From the NCBI GenBank assembly GCA_003569705.1, contig BGOU01000003.1:1-64000 (forward strand): a DNA stretch of 64,000 bases, given 5' to 3'. The DNA is from Nitrosarchaeum sp. (GTDB lineage: Archaea; Thermoproteota; Nitrososphaeria; Nitrososphaerales; Nitrosopumilaceae). The notes beneath the pieces are model-generated. The model made no database searches and was not told where the DNA came from. It saw only the letters and a list, made by a program, of their open reading frames with translations. Below, piece after piece: positions 18,510-60,925 of this stretch (its first letter is position 1; every line of letters starts with the position of its first letter). The position numbers and the translations under genes are program-made.

Positions 18510-18599
18510 AGCGGGGTGGGGAAGCCAGACTCTTTAGGGCTATGTCATCCCGGCGGGCTCATAACCCGCAGTTCAGTAGTTCAAATCTACTCCCCGCTA
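18510..18599 (+). tRNA. Initiator tRNA-Met (CAT) with a D-loop intron
   Basis: The acceptor stem AGCGGGG pairs exactly with CCCCGCT (18592-18598), with A at 18599 as discriminator; CCA is not encoded. The anticodon stem GCGGG/CCCGC (18553-18557, 18565-18569) holds the loop CTCATAA. The T arm is AGTAG-TTCAAAT-CTACT. The A1-T72 pair and three G-C pairs next to the anticodon loop are initiator marks. The D region is 15 bases too long; removing 18529-18543 restores a normal 21-base D region and the G18-G19 pair. Mature length is 75 bases. The stop codon of tiaS on the other strand overlaps its last three bases. Confidence 0.92.
18529..18543 (+). other. 15-base tRNA intron in the D loop
   Basis: A perfect bulge-helix-bulge can be drawn. 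The four-pair central helix is AGCC (18523-18526) with GGCT (18538-18541). It is flanked by three-base bulges AGA (18527-18529) and ATG (18542-18544), each cut after its second base. The intron end forms CT-CTTT-AG. Splicing joins G18 to G19 of the D loop. Non-canonical intron sites are known in thaumarchaeal tRNAs; this one is inferred from sequence. Confidence 0.85.
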
Positions 18600-19924
18600 C
18601 TTTTCATATACGCAAAACCATGAAGCGGATTCATCAAATTTGGATTCCCTGTTAATTCTTCCAATTCTTTGTAAGGGTCTGCTAAGATGTCTGTGTGCAG
18701 AAACACTGGGATTGTACAATTGTTTTTTGATCTTTCTAGGAATTTCCAAAATAACTTTGTTTGCTAATTTTTTGCCACATTTTGTACATTGATATCCTTG
18801 ATTCCTTCCTTTGGATTTCATTTTTTTGTCACATTTTTTACAGATTGGATTTGATTTTATCAGATTTTTTTCAAGATTAATGACATCAATAAACTCAAGA
18901 TTTAGAATCCTAGGATGGTTTTTTGAGGCTTTTCTAATACCGCCTCCAATGCAAACCTTGTCTCCTTTAATCAAACTTAATGCTACAAAAGACATCCCAG
19001 TTGGTTTGTAAACAGCGCATCGTAATTCATATCCATCTGAAATAATAGAGAAAAAAACATGTCCACCTTTTACAATTTTTGGTTCATCAGATATAATCCC
19101 AGTAATTTTTCCTGAAGCATAAGGTCTGATGTTTGTTATATTAAATTCATTTTTCAAGTGATCACCTGTACCTTGATTAGATTTGAATATCATGTAACCT
19201 GCTAATTTTTCATCAGTTTCCAAAATTTTTGTTGCACGTAATAATGAATTTACATTTTCTCCACGCACACCGTAAAAAACTGGATCAGGACCATGAGGAG
19301 TAATTAAGACTCTTTGTTTTTTGTTATCAAAGCTGTTAAATGTATAAGGTAATGTTTTTTCCTGCATTGTTTTTACACTTTTAGCAGAAAGTTTTCTCTC
19401 TTTTCCAAAGTTAGAATTTTTTCTATAACTTAATAGCTCCAATGTATGATCTTGAAAATCATAACCAATTGCACCTATTGCACCTACAAGGCCTTGACCA
19501 TTTCCTTGGTAAAAAAATTCAATGTTATTTTTTGTAGCAAATTTTTTTGCGACGTTTCTGTTTATTAGTTGCCATAAGGCTAATTTGCTGAATCGGTAAA
19601 TTGTTCTGGAATTTCTTTACTCTCATAAAAAACCAGACCTGGATTTGCACCATTTTTGATATCAGAGTATTTTTCAACAAGATTTTTAATTTGATTTTTG
19701 ATTTTTGATGGATTTTTTGTCCTTATTCGCAAAGAAACTGCCCCATTGCCTCGAGTTTTCCAAGGAATATTTGGATTGAATCTGATTAATTTGGGAAAGT
19801 CAAGAAATTCAGTCTCTTGTTTTTTTAACAGATCAACAATTTTGTAAGCAAGAAATGTTGTACACATTCCTTTTGGAGAATCTGTATCATCAAAACCAAT
19901 ATTCAATATGTGCGTATCAGTCAT
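18597..19924 (-). CDS. tiaS: tRNA-Ile2 agmatinylcytidine synthetase (frame-broken)
   Basis: Attaches agmatine to C34 of the CAU tRNA-Ile so that it reads AUA. The N-terminal part has NIGFDDTDSPKGMCTT, the TiaS kinase-like start. The middle carries the OB-fold segment (SGKITGIISDEPKI) and the C-terminal zinc ribbon has two CxxC pairs (CKKC, CTKC). The frame breaks in a run of three T at 19584-19586; one base joins FTDSA to KLALWQLINRN and gives about 442 residues. Its TAG overlaps the 3' end of the initiator tRNA gene on the opposite strand. Confidence 0.9.
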
Positions 19925-58512: not shown

Positions 58513-59918
58513 TTGGTGGTAAAAACCTGAATCAAATAACTACAACAAATCCAGCAACTGGCGAAGAGATTGCAAAATATACAGCAATGGATAAAGAGCA
58601 AGTATTCCAATTAGTTGGAAAGGCAAGAAGAGCCTTTCCAGAATGGAAAAAAGATTATGAAAAACGTAGGAGTTACATCTACGTATTAGTTGAATATTTA
58701 AAAAAGAACAAAATGGAATTGGCAAAAGTTGCAACATCTGAGATGGGAAAAACAATCAAAGAATCAATCGGTGAAGTTGAAAAATGTGCATGGGCATTGG
58801 AATTTTATGCAGATAATGGAGATAGTTTTCTTGCTGATGAAGTATTAAACACAGATGCAAGAAAAAGTTTTCTTACTTTTGAACCACTTGGTGTGATTGG
58901 TTCAATTATGCCTTGGAATTTTCCTTATTGGCAAGCTCTAAGATTTGCTGCACCATGTTTAATGGCAGGTAATGTCATAGTAATGAAACCATCTAGAGTG
59001 ACTATGCAAACAGGCATTGAGATTGAAAAAGCATTTACTGAATCAGGCATACCAGATGGAATATTTCAGACAGTAGTAGGAAGTGTAGAATCTGCTAATC
59101 ATCTTATAGATTCGGATGTTAATGCGGTGACATTTACAGGCAGCACAGATGCTGGTGCTAAGGTAGGACAAAGAGCTGCAATGAATTTAAAAAAATGTGT
59201 TTTGGAGCTTGGAGGAAGTGATCCCTTTATCGTACTAGATGATGCAATTATTGAAAAAGCTGCAGAAGGAGCAGTTAAAGGCAGATTCATTAATTGCGGT
59301 CAAAGTTGTGTTGCATCTAAAAGATTCTTTGTTAGTAAAAATATTGCTAAAGATTTTATTGAGTTATTTATCAAAAAAGCATCTCAATTAAAAGTTGGAG
59401 ATCCTACTTTAATTGAAACTGATATTGGACCTTTATCAAGTAAAGGAAGTTTAGAAACCATTTCAGGAATTGTAGAAGATGCAAAAGAGAAAGGTGCTGA
59501 AATTCTTTTAGGTGGTTCAAAAATTGATGGAAAGGGTTACTTCTATCAGCCCACAATTCTTACAAATGTTAAACCAAATATGAGAATTGCAAAAGAAGAG
59601 ACATTTGGTCCAGTTGCTCCTATAACAATAGTTGAAAATGAAAGTGAGGCTGTAAGGTTAGCAAATGATACAGAATTTGGATTAGGAGCAAGTATTTGGA
59701 CTAAAGATCTAGCAAAAGCTGAAAAAATATCAAGACGAATAGAATCTGGAATAGTTAGTGTCAATAATGTGGTAATTTCAGATCCAAGAATCCCATTTGG
59801 TGGAATAAAACACAGTGGATTTGGAAGAGAATTATCAAGATACGGAATGCTTGAATTTGTGAACATCAAATCAGTCAGATTCTATGATAATCTAAGTCAC
59901 CACCATTACGTGGAATAA
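58513..59918 (+). CDS. Aldehyde dehydrogenase, succinate-semialdehyde type (start frame-broken)
   Basis: NAD(P)-dependent dehydrogenase with PWNFPYWQALRFAAP, GSTDAGAKV, the active-site glutamate in LELGGSDP and the cysteine in NCGQSCVASKR. The sequence fits succinate-semialdehyde dehydrogenases, but the substrate is inferred. The conserved N terminus (QITTTNPATGEEIAKYT) lies upstream of the first in-frame ATG at 58587 and has no start in its own frame. A GGAG at 58506 followed by TTG 58513 or GTG 58516 fits if one A is restored in 58521-58525, giving about 468 residues. Confidence 0.88.
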
Positions 59919-59978
59919 GTTCTCTCAATCATGAAAATTAGAGTTTACCTTAAGTATGATTTTGACGTAGAGTATTAC

Positions 59979-60091
59979 GACGAGGACGCCCATTAACAAT
60001 ATGTTTTGGGTGAAGATCAGTGTGATCTTGGGAACGCCTTGAACTTTGGGGTATAATCAAAGTTCATGATTCCCGTTGAATAATCCTCGTC
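59979..60091 (+). ncRNA. Candidate structured RNA, closed four-way junction
   Basis: Not matched to any RNA I know. An 8-pair stem GACGAGGA (59979-59986)/TCCTCGTC (60084-60091) encloses three hairpins. The first is CGCCCA/TGGGTG (59987-60012) with an inner AACA/TGTT. The second is AAGATCA-GTG-TGATCTT (60013-60029). The third is GGGAA/TTCCC with TGAACTTTG/CAAAGTTCA (60030-60074). The segment is GC-richer than its surroundings and lies between two convergent genes. On the plus strand the closing stem is followed by TTTTCTTT, like a terminator. A weak TATA-like CCTTAAGTAT lies 59948-59957. Strand is inferred. Confidence 0.6.
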
Positions 60092-60365
60092 AGTTTTCTT
60101 TATCATCGGCTTCGTCATAATCACATTCTTCTAATTCAATATGAGTTGGACTACCATTTTCATTAAAGTAAATTTCAATACAGATATCAGATGTCAAAGT
60201 TGAGGCTAAAGTTTCAGCTAGTTCCTTAGGAAAATTATCTAATATGTTAGAATTTGAGGAATATTTGTATTCAGTAAGTTCATCGTCATGATAGAAATCT
60301 ATCTCAATATTCCCATTTGCATATTTTCTGACTCCAACAACTTGACCAAATATACTGTAAGACAA
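60090..60365 (-). CDS. Small acidic protein of unknown function
   Basis: Not recognised. The 91 residues are strongly acidic with a beta-rich first half (GQVVGVRKYANGNIEIDFYHDD in short) and an acidic C-terminal tail (ECDYDEADDKEN). It starts 2 bases after the hemerythrin gene stop, so they form one unit. Confidence 0.72.
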   Translation of the reverse strand: MSYSIFGQVVGVRKYANGNIEIDFYHDDELTEYKYSSNSNILDNFPKELAETLASTLTSDICIEIYFNENGSPTHIELEECDYDEADDKEN

Positions 60366-60367
60366 AT

Positions 60368-60925
60368 CTAATTTCCGTGTTGAGAAACATCTTTGGTTAG
60401 GGTTTCAGCTAATTGTTCATAATGTTCTCTGGTTTTTCCAATTTCTTTGAGTTTTAATTCCTCAATCTCATTTAGTTCATTATCAACCTTTTTTGAAACA
60501 TATTGTAAACGTGCTTCAGCCATCATAAACAATCTATTATTTTCTTTCCACAAATGTTCTGTTATATGCTCTACATATTGTTGCATATCACTAATCAATT
60601 TTGTAGAATTACCAGATGAAATGTAATCTTTAGCAGAACTTTCCATTTCTTTTCCAATTTCTCTTGAACGTTCGTGATCCATCAACATCATTGCAATTGG
60701 ACCCATATTACGTGGCATTCCTGCTTGTTCTAATGCAGGGAATAGTGAATTCTCTTCTTTACTATGATGACAAACATCAGTGAAATTTTTTGAAAAATCA
60801 ATAACAGGTAACAATATAGATTCAGGAATTTGTTTTCCATCATTTAGAAGTTGAATTGTAGATTCCATTGCTTTGATGACTTTTTCTATTAGATCATGAT
60901 CTCGTCTTAAAGATGCAGTTGACAT
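60368..60925 (-). CDS. Hemerythrin-like domain protein
   Basis: The 185 residues form a four-helix HHE bundle with the di-iron ligand pattern H10, H53/H54, E58, H84, H120 and H124. A C-terminal helical tail follows. Such proteins bind oxygen or iron, or sense redox and nitric oxide; which applies is unknown. It precedes the acidic unknown gene in the same transcript. Confidence 0.87.
   Translation of the reverse strand: MSTASLRRDHDLIEKVIKAMESTIQLLNDGKQIPESILLPVIDFSKNFTDVCHHSKEENSLFPALEQAGMPRNMGPIAMMLMDHERSREIGKEMESSAKDYISSGNSTKLISDMQQYVEHITEHLWKENNRLFMMAEARLQYVSKKVDNELNEIEELKLKEIGKTREHYEQLAETLTKDVSQHGN

Follow-up and report, generated by a model that had tools for sequence, protein, structure and literature searches.

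A lineage-restricted small structured RNA with a conserved P1/P4 core in Nitrosopumilaceae

Introduction

Among ammonia oxidisers, Nitrosopumilaceae are some of the most abundant. Base-pairing in trans is a common mode of action of intergenic small RNAs. Free-standing intergenic sRNAs have been described in archaea (PMC3432209), and the RNA reported here resembles them in being intergenic, small, lineage-restricted and TATA-driven (here represented by a promoter-like box only); it differs from them in forming a family of its own, with strong covariation, a conserved P1/P4 core and no match to a described family. Comparative-structure evidence of the same kind underlies the 104 candidate structured RNAs of Weinberg et al. 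2010 (PMC2864571), often likewise with an unassigned role in trans, but the main text of that paper names no Nitrosopumilus, Cenarchaeum or crenarchaeal motif. Y RNAs, which are bound by Ro60, are alike in having a conserved stem made from the 5' and 3' ends and variable inner hairpins, and unlike in that the RNA-bearing genomes have no TROVE protein above the cut-off and the present RNA has no Rfam match. The bacterial 6S RNA and CsrB are protein-titrating RNAs. They resemble the present RNA only in the mode proposed for it, a structured RNA that binds and sequesters a protein, and are compared by function alone, not by sequence or structure; archaea are not known to have sigma factors.

The N. 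limnia paper (PMC3043068) mentions a 'conserved noncoding RNA', given without a name, that is 93% identical to its N. maritimus counterpart. This is probably a different RNA, because genus g1 and genome G118 share only 70-75% identity in the present one. No description of it was found in Rfam or in the open-access papers searched, and an earlier notice elsewhere is possible. We file the RNA as a new family within a known kind, the free-standing small structured RNAs.

Results

The window analysed here is the whole stretch of 64,000 nucleotides (positions 1 to 64,000 of contig BGOU01000003.1 of Nitrosarchaeum sp.), and the RNA element lies near its end (Table 1). A first-pass annotation, made from the letters alone, had drawn an 8-pair stem closing three hairpins of 6, 7 and 5 + 9 pairs. 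Our folding recovered the same arrangement, with 8 pairs in P1, 6 outer pairs in P2, 7 in P3, and, in P4, 5 lower pairs (60030-60034 / 60070-60074) followed by the 3x1 internal loop and about 10 upper pairs; the T-rich tract noted on the plus strand is also there. The minimum free energy of the 131-nt stretch was -46.6 kcal/mol compared with -28.6 +/- 3.2 for dinucleotide shuffles (z -5.64), and 0 of 200 shuffles were as stable. With the 8-nt leader included, the RNA has a GC content of 42%. Since the reverse strand also folds stably (z -6.1), folding alone gives no strand. The location had been called convergent intergenic: the gene pair is convergent, but the minus-strand gene has a stop codon that reaches over the last two bases of P1. 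This gene, whose overlap with the RNA gene amounts to about 30 nt in genome G118, is syntenic with the hemerythrin-domain gene, and the acidic C-terminal tail of its product differs among relatives.

Table 1. Position of the RNA element, its parts and its neighbours in the window.
Feature	Position	Strand	Basis or remark
Aldehyde dehydrogenase (PF00171), upstream neighbour	58587..59918	+	adjoins 19/24 RNA copies
TATA-like box CTTAAGTAT	59949..59957	+	starts 30 nt upstream of first paired RNA base
Structured RNA, four-way junction P1-P2-P3-P4, ~113 nt	59979..60091	+	stability z -5.6, 24 copies, covariation
P1, 5' strand GACGAGGA	59979..59986	+	8 pairs with 60084-60091; 99% of cells paired over 24 copies
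Hairpin P2	59987..60012	+	6 outer pairs (59987-59992 / 60007-60012) and a short inner helix
Hairpin P3, 7 pairs in window copy (60013-60019 / 60023-60029)	60013..60029	+	folding and 24-copy pairing
Hairpin P4 with 3x1 internal loop (60035-60037 / 60069)	60030..60074	+	most conserved sequence GGGAACGCCTTGA...CATGATTCCC
Joiner J4/1, variable, single-stranded	60075..60083	+	0.62 bits per column over 13 representatives
P1, 3' strand TCCTCGTC	60084..60091	+	partner of 59979-59986; pair counts over 24 copies
T-rich tract AGTTTTCTTTATC, candidate transcript end	60092..60104	+	sequence
91-aa protein, acidic tail, convergent neighbour	60090..60365	-	no Pfam match; stop codon 60090-60092 overlaps last 2 nt of P1
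Hemerythrin-domain protein (PF01814)	60368..60925	-	Pfam domain

We compared the window copy and seven other copies, the majority of which are divergent, with Rfam 15 and found no family at the gathering threshold; at E <= 10 the window copy gave only a chance C/D match on the other strand. The first-pass annotation could not match the element to 5S, SRP, RNase P, tRNA, C/D or H/ACA RNAs; it had suggested an Rfam scan and named a match to a known family as a ground for dropping its candidate. In size and compact multi-branched fold, the element has a general likeness to housekeeping RNAs, and could be a diverged RNase P RNA, SRP RNA, C/D or H/ACA guide, or Y RNA. Besides the absence of an Rfam match, this reading is opposed by the true copies of archaeal RNase P RNA (RF00373; G000:C7:99913-100191, 192.7 bits) and archaeal SRP RNA (RF01857; G000:C4:65484-65795, 110.4 bits) encoded elsewhere in the genome. 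By inspection, an H/ACA pocket would need a larger loop than the 3x1 one of P4, no conserved ANA box follows P4, and the three-nucleotide side of the loop is followed by an invariant C-G pair, not by the tandem G-A pairs of a kink-turn (the L7Ae ligand). The Ro60/TROVE protein was over the cut-off in 0 of the 18 RNA-bearing genomes searched, with one sub-threshold match in G008, and the RNA has been lost in many species. A diverged housekeeping RNA is therefore very improbable.

Covariance models built from five, then 22 and 24 copies were used to search 250 family, 400 order and 400 class genomes. This search of thaumarchaeal genomes, which had been proposed as a check, yielded 24 near-intact copies in 23 of the 250 Nitrosopumilaceae genomes, belonging to 4 of 22 genera (g1, g3, g12 and g14). 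Among the 400 order and 400 class genomes, no match outside Nitrosopumilaceae held up on inspection. When 84,980 named species were scanned with a pattern, 14 contigs came up, all labelled Nitrosopumilus, Nitrosarchaeum, Nitrosopumilaceae, Marine Group I or Thaumarchaeota. Open reading frames overlap the weak class- or order-level matches in G374, G407 and G408 (family f8), which were not counted; nor were the matches in G429, G079, G082 and a second one in G019, which have no P4 core. The matches of G079 and G082 (L106 and L107, genus g18) have a short stretch in common, TTTTTGACGAGGATTTTTAATAACAAAATCCT, with a P1-like stem and no P4 core, and are either relatives or chance.

The alignment of the 24 copies showed changes on both sides in 24 of 40 pairs, compared with 8.9 +/- 1.9 in shuffles (0 of 500 as high), counts that come from alignments fitted to the covariance model, which somewhat favours pairing, and from copies of which 19 are orthologs at one site and so not independent, the spread resting mostly on the five copies elsewhere. 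All six outer pairs of P2 had such changes. Over the 24 copies, 94.1% of cells were paired, and sliding the partners by 1-3 columns reduced this to 36-50%. The P1 of L047, which is a second copy and lies at another site, has become TGCGAGG/CCTCGCA with its pairing retained. Read on the plus strand, the RNA copies contain 102 G-U or U-G pairs versus 5 A-C or C-A pairs; the plus strand is thus the functional RNA, because the 102 G-U pairs would be mismatches on the other strand. From P1 to P1 the copies measure 101-116 nt and differ by single bases, and since these differences are not multiples of three, the locus is not coding. Compensatory changes, whose absence from relatives the first-pass annotation had named as a ground for dropping its candidate, are abundant. 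Taken with the absence of an Rfam match, the G-U bias to the plus strand and the TATA-like box at a fixed distance, they support the proposed structured RNA, and we conclude that the window locus is almost certainly a genuine RNA gene.

Conservation is unevenly distributed over the fold: P1 has 1.7-1.8 bits per column, the lower and middle P4 1.5-2.0, the P2/P3 region and the P4 tip 1.0-1.1, and the joiner 0.6. The constant core consists of P1 and P4, the latter with GGAA, the CKC/A internal loop and then CUU/AUG. The architecture with P2 and P3 is that of the g1 and g12 copies at the aldehyde dehydrogenase site. In L038, L039, L043 and, more diverged, L047, one hairpin replaces P2 and P3 (P2 is replaced in the g3 copies), and the tail TCCTATYTYA follows P1; the genes near these four encode multicopper oxidase and universal stress protein, or an acyl-CoA dehydrogenase. 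The loop of this P2' hairpin in L039 and L043 is C-rich and conserved (GCCTCCCC), is complementary in type to Shine-Dalgarno, and is absent from the window copy.

In the near-intact copies, at unrelated sites as well, P1 is preceded by the box YTTAAGTAT (with variants in a few of them), which begins 29-30 nt upstream (in L038, the 29 nt were read by eye). In a crude best-match scan, many tRNA genes of the Nitrosarchaeum genome had A/T boxes about 29-32 nt upstream. Conservation is low in the leader just 5' of P1 (0.4 bits per column), and this, together with the box spacing, fits a predicted transcript start at P1. The TATA-like box at a fixed distance and the strand-specific G-U pairing support putative transcription of the plus strand, and the fixed spacing suggests a promoter of its own, as is looked for in a trans-acting ncRNA gene. 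An apparently shared palindromic operator upstream of the TATA box (TTYTC...GARAA) was considered and rejected; its inverted repeats did not exceed those of shuffled sequence, and a search with the pattern gave no regulon.

Separately, the window carries a tRNA-like gene at 18510-18600 on the plus strand, to which ARAGORN gives no type (anticodon 'atgt'). In the genome search, it exceeded the Rfam threshold by a small margin (29.7 bits at 18535-18591). On visual inspection it resembles an elongator tRNA-Met (CAT) whose D-arm region carries an insertion, perhaps a non-canonical intron.

By DNA search, four further genomes of the genus (G006, G016, G005 and G008) carry the element at the same site. 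In another eight, of which seven belong to this genus and one to genus g4, the neighbour genes are the same and the site is empty. On the aldehyde dehydrogenase gene tree, bearers are interleaved with non-bearers; at least seven changes are needed, and the starred branches force three. In L013 and L014, the upstream flank remains together with half of the TATA box; the remainder is missing. Decayed relics occupy the same site in G182, G183 and G186 (z about -1, versus -1.8 to -5.6 in others), and L037 also looks partly decayed (z -1.9). Because related species lost the RNA gene cleanly or retain decayed relics, it is dispensable. The simplest reading is an RNA gene in the common ancestor of g1, g12 and g14, followed by repeated loss. 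Each RNA-bearing genome has one copy except G066, where two diverged copies lie at different sites (L053 6831-6948 and L052 4718-4838), each with promoter box and fold. The promoter box, the distribution over lineages, the decayed and empty sites and the second architecture of the distant copies are additions to the first-pass annotation.

This scattered presence, the inverted repeat P1 at both ends and the two sites of G066 are also what a small mobile or selfish element of the MITE type would give, with P1 as its terminal inverted repeat. We disfavour this reading and hold it to be highly unlikely: apart from G066 there is one copy per genome (the weak second match in G019 having no P4 core), the promoter box lies outside the repeat and yet belongs to the conserved unit, L013 and L014 look as after a deletion, and viral contigs gave 0 matches to the RNA. 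Compensatory changes and a one-sided preference for G-U pairs moreover show selection on an RNA.

Concerning a role in cis, the element could belong to the 91-aa/hemerythrin operon, as an antisense regulator or a processed 3' end, or it could form a structured 3' end on the aldehyde dehydrogenase mRNA. Its overlap with the minus-strand gene, at the stop codon in the window and over about 30 nt in G118, and the 19 of 24 copies at the aldehyde dehydrogenase site would agree with this. Outside that site, however, the flanking genes differ, which argues against a cis role: five copies elsewhere keep the promoter box and fold core next to other neighbours, eight relatives have the same genes without the RNA, and the plus strand has its own TATA-like box. 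We therefore regard a cis element as unlikely. A riboswitch or mRNA leader was rejected, since the downstream gene is convergent or depends on the locus, with no consistent co-directional gene.

Discussion

What the RNA does in trans was considered from the position of its conserved letters. A trans-acting base-pairing sRNA would use an exposed stretch to pair with mRNAs and alter their translation or decay. The conserved C-rich loop in the single hairpin of two g3 copies, L039 and L043, and the 3' tail TCCTATYTYA common to the g3 copies and L038 would suit such a role. The family as a whole, however, has no conserved exposed stretch, as the joiner reaches only 0.62 bits per column and the P2/P3 loops are variable, and in its own genome the RNA has no long match on either strand, the best other one being 22 nt at 91% (E 0.07). 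A base-pairing sRNA is thus possible but rather doubtful. The conserved letters are found in helices and in the 3x1 loop of P4 instead of in exposed loops, which suggests protein recognition rather than a shared antisense seed.

We give about an even chance to the reading that the RNA is a small structured non-coding RNA, a free-standing gene of Nitrosopumilaceae, that acts in trans through a bound protein. Transcription would run from about 30 nt after the start of the TATA-like box, at or near 59979, into the T-rich tract after 60091. The RNA forms a compact junction held by P1, as covariation shows. It would most likely act as a ribonucleoprotein, in which P1 and the lower and middle P4, including the 3x1 internal loop, form the recognition site of a protein, and the outer hairpins may serve as spacers or modulators. 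By binding or sequestering the protein, the RNA may tune an accessory, condition-dependent process. The conserved letters inside helices could instead reflect tertiary contacts or pairing with another RNA, and the UA step at the P4 tip, retained in most copies, may mark an RNA-RNA contact.

As a tentative proposal, which we would not yet favour over its negation, the RNA would belong to a new class of RNPs in archaea. It would be an accessory RNA of ammonia-oxidising Nitrosopumilaceae, with a P1/P4 core that binds and controls a dedicated protein and with two architectures, of two peripheral hairpins or of one, built on that conserved core. With its promoter-like box, its strong covariation and a list of species with and without it, the RNA offers a directly testable candidate regulator in Nitrosopumilaceae.
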